Part shown: piece by piece, positions 496 to 26,840 of the stretch
How the letters are laid out: the number at the start of each line of letters is the position of its first letter
How positions within the stretch are numbered: position 1 is the first letter of the stretch
From: Natrarchaeobaculum sulfurireducens
GTDB taxonomy: Archaea > Halobacteriota > Halobacteria > Halobacteriales > Natrialbaceae
Length of the DNA stretch: 64,000 bases
Assembly: GCF_003430825.1 (NCBI RefSeq)
Contig: NZ_CP024046.1
Coordinates: 1 to 64,000 of the forward strand
Direction: 5' to 3'
Position numbers and translations under genes: made by a program
The notes under the pieces: model-generated
What the model saw: the letters and a program-made list of their open reading frames with translations, nothing else
Databases searched by the model: none
Told to the model about the DNA's origin: nothing

Positions 496-1710
496 ATGTC
501 CGACTCCAACGATTTGTTCGTCCGGGAAGATCCTATCTTCGTAAACAAGGAGCTCTTGGAGATCAGTCACGTACCGGATGAAGGTCGAATCGTGGGCCGG
601 GACGACGAAATCGGACAACTAGCAAGCGCTGTCAATCCTGCAATCTTCGGACAAAGCCCAAGTAACGTTCTTATTTACGGCAAGACTGGAACTGGGAAAT
701 CACTCTGTGCGAAGTACGTGTCTAACCGACTCGTTGATACCGCTCACGAGGAGGGAACCAAAGCAGCGTACGTCTATGTCGACTGTGCCCAGGACAGTAC
801 TGAAACGCAAACCGTACAAACGATCGCCAGCTCTGTGAATACCTCCGAGACAGATATCTACATCCCTGATAAAGGCATCAGCACTGCGACCTACTACAAA
901 CGGCTCTGGCGAATTCTCGATGACGCCTACGACGTCCTATTGATTATTCTGGACGAGATCGACAAACTCGAGGACGACGCCATTCTGATGCAACTGTCTC
1001 GTGCAGGCGAAGCGGGCAAGCTCAAAAATTGTAAGATCGGTGTGATCGGTATCAGCAACAAGATCAAGTACAAAGATCGGATGGACGAACGCGTCAAATC
1101 CAGTCTTTGCGAACGGGAGTTCGTTTTCCCGCCGTATAACGCAACCCAGTTGAACGCCATTATGGAGGCCCGAAGCGATGCGTTCCGCGATGGCGTGCTG
1201 GAAGAAGCCGTTATCCCTCGAGCGTCAGCGTTGGCTGCTCGAGAGCATGGAGATGCACGGAAGGCGATCGACATCCTTCGGTATGCTGGCGAAATCGCTC
1301 AGTCGACGGGTGCTGATACGGTTCGCGAAGAATTCATTGTCCGGGCCCGCGAACGAGCCGAGGTCGATCGCTTCCAGGAACTGATTCGCGGTTCGACACC
1401 CCACTCGAAGTACGTTCTTCAGGCACTGACTGTGCTCTCACTCGATAACGGTACTCCCGAGCCCGAAACCTTCGAACAGGGGTTTCGGACGACTCGGATC
1501 TACGAAGTGTACGAACAGATCTGTCGACAGGAAACTGTCGAGTCACTTTCACTTCGGCGTGTTCGTGACCTCCTCAAAGAGCATGCATTCCTAGACGTTA
1601 TCGAGCAGTCTCGACACAGTGGTGGGAGTGCCGAAGGCAGTTACACGGAACACATGCTTCTCGAGGATCCTGAAGTGGTCAAGAGCGTTCTTGCGGATTC
1701 GATTGACTGA
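496..1710 (+). CDS. orc1: Orc1/Cdc6 family replication initiator
   Basis: This is an AAA+ origin-binding and helicase-loading protein of about 404 residues. Visible motifs are Walker A (YGKTGTGKS) near residue 70, Walker B (LLIILDEIDKL) near residue 155, and a sensor-like stretch (IGVIGISNKI). A C-terminal winged-helix region follows (YEVYEQICRQ onward), as usual for Orc1. The frame stays open upstream to position 316, but that part encodes low-complexity sequence and overlaps two origin boxes. The ATG at 496, giving MSDSNDLFVRED, matches the normal family N-terminus. A box ends nine bases before this start, so the protein may bind over its own promoter. Family assignment is firm; the start is likely. 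Confidence 0.95.
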   Translation: MSDSNDLFVREDPIFVNKELLEISHVPDEGRIVGRDDEIGQLASAVNPAIFGQSPSNVLIYGKTGTGKSLCAKYVSNRLVDTAHEEGTKAAYVYVDCAQDSTETQTVQTIASSVNTSETDIYIPDKGISTATYYKRLWRILDDAYDVLLIILDEIDKLEDDAILMQLSRAGEAGKLKNCKIGVIGISNKIKYKDRMDERVKSSLCEREFVFPPYNATQLNAIMEARSDAFRDGVLEEAVIPRASALAAREHGDARKAIDILRYAGEIAQSTGADTVREEFIVRARERAEVDRFQELIRGSTPHSKYVLQALTVLSLDNGTPEPETFEQGFRTTRIYEVYEQICRQETVESLSLRRVRDLLKEHAFLDVIEQSRHSGGSAEGSYTEHMLLEDPEVVKSVLADSID

Positions 1711-19817: not shown

Positions 19818-20078
19818 CACCGCAGGCTATCAACAATCTCATCCTCAGTGCCTTCGGCGATTCGAGAATGGGGCTTGTCCGTGGACTTAACGCCAAACCC
19901 TTCCGAGTGGTCGGTAAATCTGCTACTTGGTGTCACTGTCCCAGAGTTCAGGGCAAGCTGACTGTTGCCTGTCTGTCGAGCCGACTGTTAGCCTCGACGG
20001 ACACACCGAATCCTGATACTGTTTACGTGGCCAAGACAAACGATATAGCAATATATGATTTACACAACGCGGTTGAAG

Positions 20079-20283
20079 GATTACAGGCGGAGCAGCGCAA
20101 TGTCACGGCCTCCAGGCCGCTGATACGCGCGCAAGCTTGAGTGGGCTGGATCCCGTAAACGGCAGTACCGGAGTTCCCACGTTGAGAAACGCCGTCTTTG
20201 ACGGCACCACGGCTTTGCCGTGACTTCTCACGTGGTAACCGCTTCGCGGATTCCCGCGTCTTCAGGCGCGGGAGGAGGTCAAT
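20079..20283 (-). mobile_element. Non-autonomous IS200/IS605-like element, internally deleted copy
   Basis: This ~205-bp relic matches both ends of the 25228-25735 element in inverted orientation but lacks about 303 internal bases. One end has the hairpin cccgcgtcttcaggcgcggg next to ttgacctcctccc (reverse strand, border at 20283). The other has a GGCC-rich hairpin (20104-20120). No transposase is encoded. The stop codon of the neighbouring integrase gene lies within the border sequence. Confidence 0.7.
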
Positions 20284-21562
20284 CACTAAATGCGTCTGCT
20301 AACTGTGCCCGCATGTACTCTCTCCGCAGGTCACGAATCCGGGCCTCAGAGAGGTAATTTCGCAACACGACCTCTGGACTCTCGCTACCCTGATCGGCGG
20401 CAACTCCCTCGAGGCCGTCGAGAATAACGTCGAGGGCTGATGAGTAGATATCGTACCAGAACCGCCTCCCCATTTTCGCTGACGTTGACTCGCCTGCGAT
20501 TTCAGCAGGGAGGCCTGCTCGTTCAGCGAGATCCTGGAATCGGTTCCAGACCGTCCATCGGGTAATGTGGGCTCGAGAACTATGGGGTGAGGGAAACAGG
20601 TATCCGCTCCAGTCGTCGCTTCCGTCCCAGCTGTCGATATAGGCGTTGATCAACTCTTGGCCGAAGAGAATAGAGACCTGGCCGGGTCCATTTTTTCGCT
20701 CTTCGAACTGAATGTAGGGGGTTTCACCCGCTGGAACATCGAAAACGAACATCTCTGTCCTGAGTTTGGCCACCTCGTTTGGTCGGAGCCCCCATCCACA
20801 GAGGGCTACCACTAAGAGTTGCTCTTCGATATCAGTAGCCGTCTCGTAGAGCGATTGGACGTGAGCAGCCGTTAAACAGGGTGTATCGTCGTTCTCACTA
20901 TCACTTTTCGACCAATCGTATTCTTCATCGAGTCCTTCGACAGGGTTGAAGGTAGCCCATTTCCGCCGAACCAGGTGTGAGTACCAGTTCGACACGGCAA
21001 GGTGGATCCGTTGTTTGGTTTGGTTCCCCTCGAGCTCTCGATGGAGTCTGTCGAATGCGCTGAAACAGTTGTCTACGGCAACATGAGCGGGCACATCGCC
21101 TTCTCGAGCAACCGGGCTTACGATGTCAGCAGTTCCGTTTTCTTCTTTATAGGCACGAATGAAGCGGTTTAGCCGATATCGGAGTGTATCGATCGACGAC
21201 GCTGCTAACCCTTTGCGAGACCGTCGAGAGGTGAGAAACGACTCCAGCGCTTCGATCGTTCGCTCATCTGTTGTTGCCCACTCAAACCCCTCATCAGGGG
21301 TTTCAAGTCCAAGGTCTTCTTCCCAGAATTCCGAAAACGTCCGGTTATGGTGCTCCCGAAGGGTATAGAGTAACGATCTGAGACCCTGCTCGGTAAGCCA
21401 GTTGTGCGTTGGTTTCTCGTTCTGTGGATCTATGCCGTCGGCTTCCAGCTCTGGCGCAACGACCTCCCAGTAGGCGTCGACGAGGTCGTCGAGCTCGAGG
21501 ACTGTCCAGGGAACGTCGCTGGCGGTGTCCCACTCAGCAGCTGATTCTGCTGCTCTATGCAT
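20279..21562 (-). CDS. Tyrosine recombinase/integrase
   Basis: The 427-residue protein has an N-terminal SAM-like core-binding region (about 90-230, LAASSIDTLRYRLNRFIRAY) and a C-terminal catalytic domain. Catalytic-type residues are Arg in GWGLRPNEVAKLR, Lys in ERKNGPG, an R-rich GRRFWYD box and a late Tyr in VVLRNYLSE. The classical HxxR is not clearly conserved, so activity is uncertain. The TGA stop lies in the TTGA border of the adjacent transposable-element relic, so the last residues may have been trimmed by that insertion. Its position beside toxin-antitoxin and parAB genes suits a plasmid or integrative element recombinase. Confidence 0.8.
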   Translation of the reverse strand: MHRAAESAAEWDTASDVPWTVLELDDLVDAYWEVVAPELEADGIDPQNEKPTHNWLTEQGLRSLLYTLREHHNRTFSEFWEEDLGLETPDEGFEWATTDERTIEALESFLTSRRSRKGLAASSIDTLRYRLNRFIRAYKEENGTADIVSPVAREGDVPAHVAVDNCFSAFDRLHRELEGNQTKQRIHLAVSNWYSHLVRRKWATFNPVEGLDEEYDWSKSDSENDDTPCLTAAHVQSLYETATDIEEQLLVVALCGWGLRPNEVAKLRTEMFVFDVPAGETPYIQFEERKNGPGQVSILFGQELINAYIDSWDGSDDWSGYLFPSPHSSRAHITRWTVWNRFQDLAERAGLPAEIAGESTSAKMGRRFWYDIYSSALDVILDGLEGVAADQGSESPEVVLRNYLSEARIRDLRREYMRAQLADAFSD

Positions 21563-21837
21563 GGTGACTCCTCAATATCCTTCTCTGGTGGGTGAAAGCC
21601 GGTCGAAGAAGCAGTGCTTCCCACCATCCGTATTCTAAGACTCTCATTTTCACCGGATAGACACATATGCTCAGAAAACATATATTTTTTGGGACCATAC
21701 AGACTCCATCAGTCTGTGTGAAACCCAAAACTTGGCACCGTCTTCCACCATTCACGAGTAAATCGTATAGCGCTATACCAAATTCTATCTCCTGACGATT
21801 AGCAATTTCACTGATCAGATTGGCAGTATAAGCCAGA

Positions 21838-22452
21838 CTATTTCGGTGGAAGGGTGTCATCATATTCGCCGTCAAGGATTTCAGAACAATCAACGGGAAT
21901 ACTGGTCCACGCGTTCTTCACAACCTCGTACCCAGTCCATCCTTCCGTTTGAATTATCCTCACGGTTGCCTCGCAGAATTCAGGCTTTTCGATGAGGTCG
22001 TTGTCAAGCAGGATGTAGAGGAGATACGGTGGTCCCACAACGTCAATGTCGTACCCGTTGTCATCGATGAGACGCCGAATTGACCGTCTCGCAGCTGAGT
22101 CAAGAATCGATACGATCTGATACGATGAACCGTGTTCAGAAAGTTCCTGCTTGAGCGATTGCTCGCCTGCATCTGGTCCATGCGGGCGAGGAACGACAGT
22201 GACGCACGACCATGGCGACGAATCTTCGTCTAGATGATCAACAACACGTTGGCTTCCTCGTTTCAAGTAGTGTTCACGGCTGCCCTCAAGCGGGTATTTG
22301 TTCGAGCTGACGTGGTTTTGAAGTTCGTGCTTGCAGACGTTCGTCGTTGTAAGATGGATCGCGTCTTTCAGTCGTTCCCACTGAGTGGTGTTCGCAACCG
22401 CGATCAAGGAACTCGTATCAGCCAGTATCGGATAGCGAGCCTCACTCGCCAT
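21838..22452 (-). CDS. PIN-domain-like protein, probable toxin
   Basis: The 204-residue protein begins ILADTSSLIAVANTTQWERL, the typical first strand and Asp of a PIN ribonuclease. It has further acidic residues (KHELQNH; SILDSAARRSI) where the Mg-binding carboxylates normally lie. It starts inside the end of the upstream gene (11-base overlap), so the two are translationally coupled. The partner resembles a ribbon-helix-helix antitoxin, so a VapBC-like module is likely. It is longer than typical VapC (about 130 residues). The C-terminal third (DVVGPPYLLYILLDND) could be a separate region. The PIN call rests on motif reading only. Confidence 0.65.
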   Translation of the reverse strand: MASEARYPILADTSSLIAVANTTQWERLKDAIHLTTTNVCKHELQNHVSSNKYPLEGSREHYLKRGSQRVVDHLDEDSSPWSCVTVVPRPHGPDAGEQSLKQELSEHGSSYQIVSILDSAARRSIRRLIDDNGYDIDVVGPPYLLYILLDNDLIEKPEFCEATVRIIQTEGWTGYEVVKNAWTSIPVDCSEILDGEYDDTLPPK

Positions 22453-22768
22453 CGCTGCCCGTCAAGAATTCAGACGTGTCTCGTTCCATAGCCGCCTCGA
22501 ACGACTCTTTCTCCTCTTCCATCCTATCGAGTTTCTCATCGAGAAGGACACGGGCCACGTCCTCGCCAATCTCACCACGACTGTATCGTTCGTACACCGC
22601 AATCTTGTCTTGTTCATCTAATGACTGCCGAAGCATCTCGACCAGGCCGACGCGGGCGAGTTCGCTCACGTTGACGCCGCCGATGTGAATTTCATCAAGG
22701 AGCTCCGCGGCCTCTTTTTCGGCTCCGGCACGGAACTGAATCGTCTTGTCGTAGCTTGATCCGCTCAT
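22442..22768 (-). CDS. Probable antitoxin, ribbon-helix-helix-like
   Basis: The 108-residue protein starts MSGSSYDKTIQFRAGAEKE, a short strand then helices (ELLDEIHIGGVNVSELARVGLVEML) as in CopG/MetJ-type antitoxins. A long charged helix (KLDRMEEEKESFEAAMERD) follows and could wrap the toxin. The ATG at 22768 is preferred over one nine codons earlier because a catatatg TATA-like box lies 25-32 bases upstream, fitting a leaderless mRNA. It overlaps the PIN-like gene by 11 bases. Order antitoxin then toxin is typical. Function is inferred from fold impression and context. Confidence 0.6.
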   Translation of the reverse strand: MSGSSYDKTIQFRAGAEKEAAELLDEIHIGGVNVSELARVGLVEMLRQSLDEQDKIAVYERYSRGEIGEDVARVLLDEKLDRMEEEKESFEAAMERDTSEFLTGSDGE

Positions 22769-22792
22769 ATGTTGAGGTTCGACGTGGAGAGG

Positions 22793-22800
22793 CATATATG
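22793..22800 (-). promoter_or_regulatory. TATA box of the PIN/antitoxin operon
   Basis: catatatg lies 25-32 bases before the antitoxin ATG at 22768, the usual leaderless spacing. Confidence 0.5.
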
Positions 22801-23603: not shown

Positions 23604-23642
23604 TTGGGTGTGTTCAGCAATTGTGTTCACTAGTTGTGTCCA
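23604..23642 (-). repeat. Iteron cluster A: three 13-bp repeats downstream of parAB
   Basis: Read on the minus strand, three consecutive 13-mers start tggacacaa, tgaacacaa and tgaacacac (23630-23642, 23617-23629, 23604-23616) with exact 13-base spacing. A degenerate fourth follows at 23643-23655. They lie 37 bases beyond the stop of the small parAB partner gene and match the consensus TGAACACA of clusters B and C. Confidence 0.75.
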
Positions 23643-23678
23643 CTATGTTCTGCCAAAAGCCCTTACAATTCTCAATCG

Positions 23679-24101
23679 CTAGTTGTCGAAAACCATCCCA
23701 TAGCCCCACTCTTCCAATTGGCCTTCGACCTCGTCCAAATGATCGAGCCCAGCAATAACGAGGGCCTCTCTGAGGTCGGTTAACGATACGTCGTCGTCGA
23801 GTCGTTCCTCGAGTTCGCGTAGTGCATCCCGTTCATCCCGCTTTGTCTCCGAGTGTAAGAACAGTGGAACCCGGTCCCGACCGTCCTGAACTCCGTCTCG
23901 ACGGAACTTGTACGGGATCTGCATCGGCTTTCGATTGGTCGACTGCTCTGGTGAGCTCGCTGACTGCTCCACCGGGCCTTCAGTATTGTCTTCCGCAGAC
24001 TCCACATCGCCTAAGTCGGTCTCGTCTTCCCTGTCGGACGTCCCCGACGAGGTCTCTTCAGCAAACGGGTTTTCACCGGCTCCTTCTTTCATTCCGGTCA
24101 T
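23679..24101 (-). CDS. Small acidic ParA partner, ParB-like candidate
   Basis: This 140-residue protein is encoded immediately downstream of parA with a 4-base overlap (24098-24101), so it is translationally coupled. The first 60 residues are Ser/Glu/Asp-rich and probably disordered. The C-terminal half (IPYKFRRDGVQDGRDRVPLF, then SETKRDERDALRELEERL and a helical end) looks structured and basic enough to bind DNA. It has no ParB CTPase motif, so it is not a classical ParB. Small unrelated centromere-binding proteins beside ParA are common on plasmids. The role is inferred from position next to ParA and the 13-bp iterons. Confidence 0.6.
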   Translation of the reverse strand: MTGMKEGAGENPFAEETSSGTSDREDETDLGDVESAEDNTEGPVEQSASSPEQSTNRKPMQIPYKFRRDGVQDGRDRVPLFLHSETKRDERDALRELEERLDDDVSLTDLREALVIAGLDHLDEVEGQLEEWGYGMVFDN

Positions 24102-24973
24102 GCAGTCATCACCTCGTGTTCAACATCACCTGGTTCGGGTGGGTTTGGAGCTTCGAGCCCAACTTCGTCCTCGAGATGACGGGCGATTCGGTCGAACTGC
24201 GCGAGGGTCTCGATCTCGTAGTCTCGGTGTCGGTCTCGGTGGTCGCGAACGTACCTGAACGCTGAGCACTGTTTCATCCAGCACCCCTCCATCAGTGACG
24301 CTCGTTCACCGATGATCTCTGGCGTGGGGTACTCGATTTCGTCGATGATCCGGCGTTGGTCTGTTGTGTTTTTGAACCCCATCGGGATGGCGGCGAGAAC
24401 GCCTACCTCCACTTCGAGTTGGTTCTCGAGTCCAGTGACCAGTGCTTCTAACCCTTCCACTGCGGCTCTTCCTTTTGCTGTCGGCTCGACGGGGATCGCC
24501 AGCGAACGAGTCGCATGGATTGCGTTGTAGAGATGTGGTCCTTCCGTGGCAGGGGGATCACAGATGAGGACGTCGTACTTTTCGGGAACACCTGCGTCGC
24601 GAAGTACCCGCAAGAGCTGTGCGTGCATTCCGAACGCTTCTCCCATCGCTTCTGCTTGTTCTTTCTCACGTCGGAGATATTCTGCCAGATCTGAGAGCAT
24701 GTTGTGTTCGGGAACGATATCGACCCCTTCGGACGACCGGACGAGATCCTCGAAGTCACCTTTTGGCCGTCGAATCATGTGGCGAACGATATTATCAACC
24801 GACTCGGTCCGGTCCTCGTCGACGCCGAACAGTCGTGAGAGATTCCCGTCTTGAGGATCGAGCGGAACGACGAGTGGTTTGAGGCCTGCACGAGCGTGGG
24901 CGACGGCTAGGTTAGCCGCTGTCGTTGTCTTTCCGACACCTCCTGCTTCACTGTACGTCGAGTACGCTAACAT
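24098..24973 (-). CDS. parA: ParA-family partition ATPase
   Basis: The 291-residue deviant-Walker ATPase segregates plasmid or chromosome copies by dynamic DNA binding. The deviant P-loop SEAGGVGKTTTAAN lies at residues 8-21. The switch region PLDPQDGNLSRLFG and CDPPATEG (Walker B region) are visible. The ATG at 24973 (MLAYSTYSEAGG) puts the P-loop at the usual distance; upstream in-frame ATGs would add about 36 residues outside the family pattern. A TATA-like ctaaatatgag lies near 25051, next to iteron cluster B (25062-25113), so the partition complex may also control this promoter. It is the first gene of a two-gene operon. Confidence 0.9.
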   Translation of the reverse strand: MLAYSTYSEAGGVGKTTTAANLAVAHARAGLKPLVVPLDPQDGNLSRLFGVDEDRTESVDNIVRHMIRRPKGDFEDLVRSSEGVDIVPEHNMLSDLAEYLRREKEQAEAMGEAFGMHAQLLRVLRDAGVPEKYDVLICDPPATEGPHLYNAIHATRSLAIPVEPTAKGRAAVEGLEALVTGLENQLEVEVGVLAAIPMGFKNTTDQRRIIDEIEYPTPEIIGERASLMEGCWMKQCSAFRYVRDHRDRHRDYEIETLAQFDRIARHLEDEVGLEAPNPPEPGDVEHEVMTA

Positions 24974-25061
24974 ATGCTCTCCATGAAAGCCATTCATCTT
25001 GAATGTACGCAAGACACATTCATTCTCAGGCCACATTGTTGGCATCTCATATTTAGTGCAC

Positions 25062-25113
25062 TGAACACAAGCAGTGAACATAGTTCATGAACACAGTACA
25101 CGAACAACACCAA
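25062..25113 (+). repeat. Iteron cluster B: four 13-bp repeats upstream of parA
   Basis: Four directly repeated 13-mers begin at 25062 (tgaacacaa), 25075 (tgaacatag), 25088 (tgaacacag) and 25101 (cgaacaaca), exactly 13 bases apart. They lie about 90-140 bases before the parA start and abut its probable TATA region. Such an array is typical of a plasmid centromere or replication iterons. Confidence 0.8.
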
Positions 25114-25227
25114 TCTCTCTCATTCAGGTCGGTCGTAAATTGTAGGTTGGTGTTGTGCAGGGCTGTGAACGGTGTCAAAAAAGTCGTTCTTGATACTTGT
25201 GCTAGGTCGGATTGCACGGGGTGTTGA

Positions 25228-25735
25228 TTGACCTCCTCCCGCGCCTGAAGACGCGGGAATCCGCGAAGCGGAGTTCAAGGTTGCGCGTTTCCTCGGTGGC
25301 GAAGTACGCTTTCGCGTCCCACGTCGACGGTCGCCGTCCAGTTGTGACCAAGGACGTGCGTTACAGCGCGTCTAGCCCGGCCAAACGGGCCTTCCGTCCG
25401 ACACTCGGTCGGCGTTTCGACGCGACGAATACCGCTCGTCGCTCCACGGCGGGATATTCAGCCCGCACGGTACCACGATTCGCGTCACCCGAAGTCTGGC
25501 GGAATCGAAGATTCCGCTGCCCTCGCGGAACTGGGTTCCGCTTAGTGTTACGTCGTGGACTGGTTCGATCGGATTTGTTACCACGTGAGAAGTCACGGCG
25601 AAGCCGTAGTGCCGTCGAAGACGGCGTTTCTCAATGTGGGAACTCCGGTACTGCCGTTTACGGGATACAGCCCAATCAAGCTTACGCGCGTATCCACGGC
25701 CTTCAGGCCGTGGCATTGCGCTGCTCCGCCTGTAA
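25228..25735 (+). mobile_element. Non-autonomous IS200/IS605-like element, ~508 bp copy
   Basis: It is bounded at the left by ttgacctcctccc with hairpin cccgcgcctgaagacgcggg (25239-25258), and at the right by a palindrome, ccacggccttcaggccgtgg (25694-25713), just before the border. It encodes no transposase; the open frames across it are not protein-like. The 20079-20283 copy matches its two ends in reverse orientation without the middle ~303 bases. The left hairpin has the form seen beside the tnpB gene at 40966, so mobilisation in trans by an IS605-type TnpA is plausible. Confidence 0.7.
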
Positions 25736-25809
25736 TTGTGTGTAACACGCACTTGGTCCACAGCCTGTGTGTGGTTGAGTACAGCAATGAATGAACATGG
25801 TGAATGAAC

Positions 25810-26749
25810 GGCTCTGTTTAATCGCTAGACTGCGTCAAGTTGAGTCGTTAGAATCACGGTGTTGAAGCGGAAGACGGGAAGTTGTGCCAACCCAAATCTT
25901 CCGCTTCACCGAACGCTGTGTCTGGACTGCTAAAAGAGTTGCTGACGACACGGACGAACCCGCCGCCCCGGAAGGCGGCGGCGGGTTCGCCGATTATGCG
26001 ATGATTCCGCTTCACTGCTTGCGAATTTACCTCGGGACGTCCTATCGGATGACCATCGACATCCTCACGGAGATGCCACGAATAATCCGGAAGATCGGCC
26101 TTGAACCGGCCGATCTCCCTCATCCATCCACACTATGTCTAGCGTTCGATAGACTTGAGATGAGTGTGTGCCGAGTGCTGCTGCGCTATTCAGCGCAGCT
26201 GCACGAGACTGGTGAGATCGGCACGATCGACGCGACGTACTTCGACCGCTCTCGTGCAAGTCGCCACTACTGCCGACGAACAAACTACCACGTTCAGACG
26301 ATGAAAGTGACGAAACTCGTCGATACAGAGACGCAAGCGATTCTCGATCTTCACTGTACTACGACGTGGGAAGGAAGTGATGCAGAAATCTGTGAGCAAC
26401 TCGCCCGCAAGCACGCGGGCGAGTTGCGCGTCCTCACAGCGGACAAGGGCTACGACTGTAACTGGCTTCGAGAAGACCTCCGAGAACTCGACATTCGGCC
26501 GTTGATCAAGCACTGCGTCCATGCACCGTACGATCACGCGCATAACGCGCGGATTGATGACGAACTCTACGGTCAACGAGCCATGTCGGAAACCGTCTTC
26601 TCGTCTGTCAAGCGCTCGCTGGGCGTCGCCCTGCGAGCGCGGACATGGTACCGAGAATTTCGTGAGATTGCGCTGATGTGTGCGGTTTACAACATCAAGA
26701 AGGCCGCAAAACAGGAAATTCCGCTCCCGTCATGCGATTAAACACGGCC
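25810..26749 (+). mobile_element. IS5-type insertion sequence (ISH1-like), complete
   Basis: A 940-bp element has 15-bp terminal inverted repeats (left ggctctgtttaatcg; right, reversed, ggccgtgtttaatcg; 13 of 15 match). It is flanked by the 8-bp direct repeat gaatgaac (25802-25809 and 26750-26757). It carries one transposase gene. Intact ends, target duplication and full frame indicate a recent insertion. Confidence 0.85.
25884..26741 (+). CDS. IS5-family (ISH1-like) transposase
   Basis: The 285-residue DDE transposase has first catalytic Asp in GTIDATYFDRS (about residue 112), second in VLTADKGYD (about 190), and Glu within AMSETVFSSVKRSLG (about 235), the order and spacing of IS5-family enzymes. 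The GTG at 25884 begins VPTQIFRFTERC. A Gly/Pro-rich insertion (EPAAPEGGGGFADYA) precedes the conserved HCLRIYLGTSYR segment. It fills the element between the inverted repeats and appears intact. Confidence 0.85.
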   Translation: MPTQIFRFTERCVWTAKRVADDTDEPAAPEGGGGFADYAMIPLHCLRIYLGTSYRMTIDILTEMPRIIRKIGLEPADLPHPSTLCLAFDRLEMSVCRVLLRYSAQLHETGEIGTIDATYFDRSRASRHYCRRTNYHVQTMKVTKLVDTETQAILDLHCTTTWEGSDAEICEQLARKHAGELRVLTADKGYDCNWLREDLRELDIRPLIKHCVHAPYDHAHNARIDDELYGQRAMSETVFSSVKRSLGVALRARTWYREFREIALMCAVYNIKKAAKQEIPLPSCD

Positions 26750-26840
26750 GAATGAACACAAAGAGTGTTCCTAACAGCTGAACACAATGGCTGAACACAG
26801 CAGACAAACTTGACGAATTGTTGTGATGGCTAGCTTCCTT

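Follow-up and report, generated by a model that had tools for sequence, protein, structure and literature searches.

ParA-partner locus with 13-bp iteron arrays in Natrarchaeobaculum sulfurireducens: a candidate haloarchaeal plasmid partition module

The window analyzed here (the first 64 kb, 64,000 nucleotides in all, of contig 2 of Natrarchaeobaculum sulfurireducens, with plasmid pAArc-Mg-01 of N. sulfurireducens as best named relative) carries a parA gene, a small partner gene directly behind it, and three arrays of 13-bp repeats (iterons) around the pair. The question raised by this locus is what the iterons serve for. Based on comparison with related haloarchaeal loci, we consider it roughly 80% probable that the locus serves plasmid partition through a ParA-type system which also regulates itself, and in which the partner would bind the iterons both as operator and as centromere.

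The 13-bp iterons were confirmed: twelve units were found in three arrays around parA and the partner gene (Table 1), with the unit counts and coordinates that the first-pass annotation of this DNA had claimed. The exact 13-base period which it had also claimed holds for the spacing and not for the sequence, several units being degenerate. The motif TGAACACA was present in nine copies in the window, compared with 1.7 expected (100 shuffles, largest value 6), and seven of the nine fell within 23609-26799. In the upstream array one unit is TGAACATA and the last is degenerate (CGAACAAC); its self-identity at lag 13 gave a z of 4.4, which none of 1000 shuffles equaled or exceeded. One of the three units of the downstream array is degenerate (TGGACACA). 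The third (distal) array, at a distance of about 0.8 kb from the parA start on its upstream side, is split by an insertion sequence (IS). With the IS discounted it has five units (25792-25804; 25805-25809 joined to 26753-26765; 26766-26778; 26779-26791; 26792-26804), one of which is degenerate (TGTTCC). The AArc-Mg plasmid, whose partner protein is 100% identical to that of the window, naturally lacks the IS and presents at the empty site five contiguous 13-bp units, with one base different in the stretch compared by eye. In the whole 3.79-Mb genome the sequence TGAACAN7TGAACA occurred four times, always at the parA-partner locus, and its backward control did not occur at all. A looser three-unit pattern (2 mismatches) matched in this genome only at the two gene-adjacent arrays.

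Table 1. Features of the parA-partner locus and of its surroundings in the window
Feature	Coordinates	Strand	Description
parA	24098..24973	-	291-aa Walker ATPase beginning MLAYSTYSEAGGVGKTTT; P-loop residues 8-16
Partner, candidate centromere-binding protein	23679..24101	-	140 aa; start overlaps the parA end by 4 bp
Probable core promoter	24999..25016	-	B recognition element (BRE)/TATA region; putative leaderless parA transcript
Upstream array	25062..25113	+	four 13-bp units, adjoining the parA promoter on its upstream side; putative operator and candidate centromere
Downstream array	23604..23642	-	three units in the opposite orientation, past the partner gene; also in AArc-Mg (L034)
Third (distal) array, left part	25792..25809	+	five-unit array cut by the IS
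Third array, right part	26753..26804	+	
IS5-family element	25810..26749	+	940 bp, within the third array, flanked by the 8-bp duplication GAATGAAC; outside the system
orc1/cdc6 gene	535-1656	+	near the contig start; only one found on the contig of the window

The parA product was recognized by Pfam AAA_31 (E = 7.6e-19), and its best matches in the PDB were Soj proteins. In the alignment with Thermus Soj (1wcv), NQKGGVGKT stands opposite SEAGGVGKT, and the window protein has alanine at the position of the Soj signature lysine. McdA structures were also among the PDB matches, with Soj-type structures matching better. In an alignment of 12 ParA sequences the Walker A lysine K15 and D39 were invariant, as was K167, a candidate substitute for the signature lysine. 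Since the P-loop already lies at residues 8-16, there is no N-terminal helix-turn-helix (HTH) region. The start codon is most likely at 24973, as judged from the annotation of AArc-Mg (876 bp) and the conserved N-terminus MLAYSTYSEAGG, rather than at the start of the open reading frame at 25081, which overlaps the array. With this start the array is upstream of parA and outside the gene, and the earlier claim of four units before parA stands once the overlapping start at 25081 is corrected. Among 148 related loci, the signature-lysine position was occupied by Ala or Ser in all 144 that have the GGxGK motif; in the other four (L087, L146, L169 and L193) the motif was absent from the available DNA. 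Seven loci (L156, L161, L173, L176, L179, L181 and L203) form a subgroup with a WSESGG Walker A sequence, and four of them are on contigs of 1.9-3.2 Mb, which are probably chromosomal.

Three zones were recognized in the partner: an N-terminal MKxGxGxDPF-like peptide (MKEGAGEDPF-like in the window), an acidic variable linker and a conserved C-terminal domain, where P63, R68, R75, D109, E112, W132 and G133 were invariant in 25 sequences. The window partner had no match in Pfam, NCBIfam or PDB sequences. A profile of 25 relatives gave just two matches in the PDB, both with E > 0.5, and the Pfam scan of the 25 members gave scattered weak matches alone. A ParB domain was found neither in the window partner (Pfam, NCBIfam) nor in the 25 relatives (Pfam), which bears out the earlier description of the partner as a protein without ParB motifs. 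A ribbon-helix-helix (RHH) domain was suspected from the sequence pattern and gained no support: when 119 distinct sequences of the partner domain were compared by hhalign with 30 haloarchaeal RHH_1 domains, the probability was 0.9%, inside the range of 0.05 to 17.9% obtained with 30 column-shuffled alignments. A weak and broken partner match (E 0.03, two TGA stops) was observed on contig 3 (G000:C3:125583-125777), about 170 bp from an RHH_1 match at 125943.

A profile search detected relatives of the partner, up to five copies per genome, in 156 of the 242 haloarchaeal genomes searched; 57 of the 74 genera are represented. A scan of genome contigs yielded 25 partner relatives, every one with a parA start upstream, and tblastn yielded 42 plasmid records with a partner match, under which ParA was listed in 37. 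Phages and viruses were rejected as carriers, phage records being without a match and viral contigs without a confirmed one.

The iterons recur with this gene pair. Exact 13-spaced TGTTCA pairs were identified in 20 of the first 25 relatives (4-12 kb examined per locus), and every such pair was located no more than about 320 bp upstream of parA on the same strand. Using an iteron matrix, which was trained on the very 25 loci it scored, chains of three or more iterons were found just upstream of parA in 24 of the 25. In 283 kb, 34 chains were upstream of parA versus one elsewhere, while the reversed matrix gave one chain inside and none outside. A scatter of these 13-mers independent of parA, a possibility raised in the first-pass annotation, was not seen in these relatives.

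A motif-free test, which compares the 140 bp preceding the promoter region with themselves at lag 13, avoids the training of the matrix on its own loci (500 shuffles per locus, 200 per control tile, and 1000 for the window and the first sets). Pooled identity at lag 13 was 0.467 for close relatives and 0.383 for divergent ones, compared with 0.24-0.26 at the neighboring lags of 12 and 14. The broader set of 148 loci is not independent of the first relatives (L009-L033), as it shares species with them and contains the window (L062) and some named plasmids. Of these, 126 were parsed first and one was dropped for its short upstream region, leaving 125; 18 were added later, and the four without GGxGK make up the remainder. 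L015 was excluded from two alignments as its partner frame is interrupted. A significant signal (p <= 0.01) was obtained in 96 of the 125 loci (103 with a top lag of 13, 26 or 39) and in 15 of the 18 (17 with a top lag of 13 or 26), that is in 111 of 143 combined. Of the control tiles elsewhere in L009-L033, 11 of 1886 were significant and 142 had a top lag of 13, 26 or 39. The position of the upstream array is common to the window and its relatives. The 13-base period recurs at other haloarchaeal parA loci, and the sequence is not always TGAACACA. Together with the lack of scattered 13-mers, this periodicity strongly supports, by comparison, the earlier suggestion that the partner and the iterons could form a partition system not described before.

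The arrays are also in register with the gene. In the TGTTCA group (37 loci from seven host families, one clade with support 100), 111 of 137 sites occupied one of the 13 possible phases relative to the parA ATG. The modal-phase sites are 81, 94, 107, 120, 133, 146, 159 and 172 bp away, and 30 of the 37 loci have one. Closer to the gene is a conserved TCTGAC, followed by a TATA-like stretch; of 126 loci, 69 have its first base 41 bp ahead of the parA ATG and five have it at 40 bp. The exact hexamer is missing from the searched stretch in 45 of the 126, including the window, where TCTTGC (near 25014) is found at the place of TCTGAC in many relatives. As a possible common promoter element, GTCTGACN5TTTNA has three sites in the genome of the window and none at parA, because the window carries a variant. 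Partner types whose iterons differ (L059-L206) nevertheless have TCTGAC at a constant distance from parA, where it borders the presumed core promoter on the upstream side. From these positions we infer a leaderless parA promoter with the array at its upstream edge.

Arrays which adjoin the presumed core promoter, and do so at a fixed phase in the TGTTCA group, could be an operator alone, through which the partner or ParA would repress parAB while the segregation site is elsewhere. This explanation is improbable in view of where other arrays are located. The window has three, one of them beyond the partner gene and one at a distance from the parA start. When 24 of the 29 weak loci (those of the 125 with no significant upstream signal) were scanned throughout (L066, L071, L085, L126 and L195 were left out), ten, all Haloarcula-like, had an array downstream of the partner, and two had one upstream, outside or inside the tested stretch. 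Extra arrays, which might control other genes, were also found far from parA. A three-iteron pattern (up to 2 mismatches) had matches in 48 of 242 genomes, the backward control giving ten matches in total, four of these in G233. In five genomes of 2-6 contigs with a TGTTCA-type partner (G019, G022, G056, G067 and G100), which were chosen for having distant clusters, all six clusters far from parA are on the parAB plasmid, and these plasmids account for 1.92 of about 17.6 Mb. Five of the six were confirmed by the matrix as chains of three to five. No distant clusters were found in the other few-contig TGTTCA-type genomes among the matches listed, nor in the genome of the window. At least 52 clusters were counted by hand among the matches listed, 31 of them near a partner gene and 11 elsewhere on the same contig.

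The sequence of the iteron was compared with the phylogeny of the partner. In plasmid loci with partners of only 31-41% identity the repeats are different ones, most of them spaced by 13 bp, and the types TATAGC, GGTTYAAC, TAGTCTAAC, CTTAGAT and AGTATTATT were distinguished by eye; 11 of 17 divergent plasmid loci were significant (p ~0.001), the others being weak. The folded 13-mers of 99 loci (27 of the 126 were below the array-score cut, and the 18 late loci were outside this comparison) clustered into six groups and one singleton, with the 13-bp period kept. Placed on the partner tree, the motif labels required 10 changes versus a shuffled mean of 54.9, and none of 200 shuffles was as low. 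Four motif groups (37, 22, 10 and 5 loci) are single clades with support of 98-100, the two largest spanning several host families. Motif similarity was 0.71-0.78 at partner p-distances below 0.5 and 0.37-0.41 above, with a Spearman correlation of -0.49 between motif similarity and partner distance (200 permutations, most negative -0.08). The iteron sequence is variable by partner type and its 13-bp period constant, some arrays being located downstream or elsewhere on the same plasmid. The partner columns which best separate the groups include 77-80, 87, 72 and 106-107, ancestry contributing too; residues 72, 77-80 and 106-107 are predicted as the best candidates for class-specific reading of the iterons. 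Among same-genome pairs of loci, 0 of 16 shared a motif (similarity > 0.75) versus 1.59 expected, a number so small that no conclusion on incompatibility is drawn from co-residence.

The same comparison bears on two further explanations. Iterons are typical of plasmid origins, and orc1/cdc6 is near parAB in three of 24 plasmid stretches (L045, L055 and L056), so that the arrays might be replication-origin iterons bound by Rep or Orc1/Cdc6, with parA a mere neighbor. We regard this as very unlikely: the motif follows the partner tree, the sole orc1/cdc6 gene found on the contig of the window, which perhaps marks the plasmid replication origin, is 22 kb from the arrays, and the other 21 stretches, which are short, have no annotated orc1/cdc6 or replication gene, other Rep families not having been searched for. 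Binding of the iterons by ParA itself or by a host factor instead of the partner has just as little probability, since the correlation of motif similarity with ParA distance (-0.42) is expected for two genes of one operon and is slightly weaker than that with the partner, ParA starts directly with its P-loop and has no DNA-binding region at the N-terminus, and there is no reason to expect that a host factor would vary together with the operon in different host families.

Several observations weigh against a partition module in which the partner reads the iterons. No significant upstream signal was obtained in 32 of 143 loci, and 12 of the 24 weak loci scanned had no array in the available DNA. 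These 12 include all seven WSESGG loci (0 of 7, scanned throughout), a subgroup which may have a different function. Of the six motif groups with several members, two (15 and 9 loci) do not hold together on the partner tree, and partners of one identical set are split over two motif groups. The tree itself is built from few columns and leaves 50 of its 89 inner branches unresolved. In one genome two loci (L132 and L133) have nearly identical partners and dissimilar arrays. Ten of the 52 clusters counted among the matches listed are on contigs without a known partner. Some of these are in draft assemblies (for example G095, G208 and G082), that of G061 resembles an unrelated tandem repeat, and G058 and G168 share one cluster sequence, on a contig without partner, that was not confirmed by the matrix (L224). 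The AlphaFold models of the partner are of low confidence (mean pLDDT, the predicted local distance difference test, 65.7 and 66.9) and are monomers, in which a ribbon dimer cannot appear. Foldseek gave nothing below E 2 and no convincing PDB match, and VIA-align gave weak matches alone (an HBS1-like and a UBA three-helix domain).

In the proposed partition and self-regulation module, the C-terminal domain of the partner would bind the iterons, one unit per 13 bp, and build a nucleoprotein complex. At the promoter this complex would repress parAB; on the plasmid it would be the partition complex. ParA-ATP carried on the nucleoid would contact it through the N-terminal MKxGxGxDPF peptide, the partner would stimulate ATP hydrolysis, and the plasmid copies would move apart. 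Differing types of iteron and partner would allow several large plasmids to coexist in one cell. We give an even chance to a broader proposal, that of a haloarchaea-wide partition family with a lysine-less ParA, in which a partner with no assigned fold reads modular 13-bp iterons through class-specific residues, the iteron type is the compatibility group, and a megaplasmid has several dispersed centromeres.

Haloarchaea carry many large plasmids, and centromeres, a binding protein and compatibility types are predicted here on pNRC200 (Halobacterium), pHME132 (Haloferax mediterranei) and the 406-kb plasmid of Haloarcula hispanica, all plasmids of model strains, which makes haloarchaeal segregation directly testable. 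If the module is what we propose, a ParA that partitions DNA without the signature lysine would probe what that residue is needed for.

In the surroundings of the locus, the IS5-family transposase is encoded at 25884-26741 (NF033579, E = 2.2e-63). On plasmid pNG700 of Haloarcula marismortui (L041) an IS6 transposase gene is located just downstream of the partner, approximately where relatives have the downstream array. After parAB the window has an integrase-like gene and two overlapping small genes (20279-22795, minus strand), which are present in AArc-Mg too. The 204-aa product is PIN-like and the gene pair toxin-antitoxin-like by appearance, neither having a significant family match. Two related stretches, 25220-25745 (shared with AArc-Mg) and 20023-20286, resemble what we take to be the end of an IS200/IS605-type element.

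Among bacterial plasmids, ParF/ParG and delta/omega are type Ib ParA systems. Like these, the locus has a small ParA (291 aa) without an N-terminal HTH domain, a small partner gene just downstream (overlapping by 4 bp in the window, and directly behind parA in the annotated plasmid relatives listing ParA), and repeated sites upstream of parA (the window array and those of the 111 loci). It differs in that ParA of the window type lacks the deviant Walker A motif with the signature lysine (KGGxGK[ST]), and in the several sequence types of its 13-bp unit; a sequence link of the partner to RHH families was not found with hhalign. It probably works like a type Ib system; it is not filed as a member, because the signature lysine is missing and the partner fold has no assignment. 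The ParB nuclease-like/CTPase and HTH domains that mark the partner in type Ia and chromosomal ParABS systems were not found, no ParB-domain match having been obtained for the window partner (Pfam, NCBIfam) or the 25 relatives (Pfam).

Neither a haloarchaeal ParA partner nor iterons of this kind were found described in the open-licence literature, most subscription papers being outside it, so that an earlier account may exist. The plasmid-borne soj genes of Halobacterium are given as predicted partition ATPases with no partner or site mentioned (PMC7439475), and a 2016 review termed the picture of archaeal genome segregation still elusive (PMC5120986). In SegAB of Sulfolobales, as described there and elsewhere, an archaeal ATPase of ParA type is paired with a small protein that binds DNA site-specifically (PMC5120986, PMC9178275, PMC12284271), SegB being an RHH protein which recognizes two imperfect palindromes (PMC12284271). 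As far as these accounts go, the haloarchaeal locus shares with SegAB the archaeal ParA-type ATPase, the small partner, whose DNA binding would here be a prediction, and sites upstream of the operon. The haloarchaeal partner has no meaningful sequence match to any PDB chain; SegB was absent among its sequence matches to PDB chains, and the low-confidence fold models are uninformative on this point. The AspA-ParB-ParA system of plasmid pNOB8, which has three genes with AspA as binder and ParB as adaptor (PMC5120986), is likewise an archaeal plasmid partition system with ParA, whereas the haloarchaeal system has two genes and no ParB domain found with Pfam. McdA/McdB, which positions carboxysomes, combines a McdA with SGGQGKT, lacking the signature lysine, and a small non-ParB partner (PMC9178275, Table 1). 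It resembles the haloarchaeal pair in both respects, and differs from it in that the cargo of McdA is the carboxysome and the window ParA is closer to Soj-type structures.

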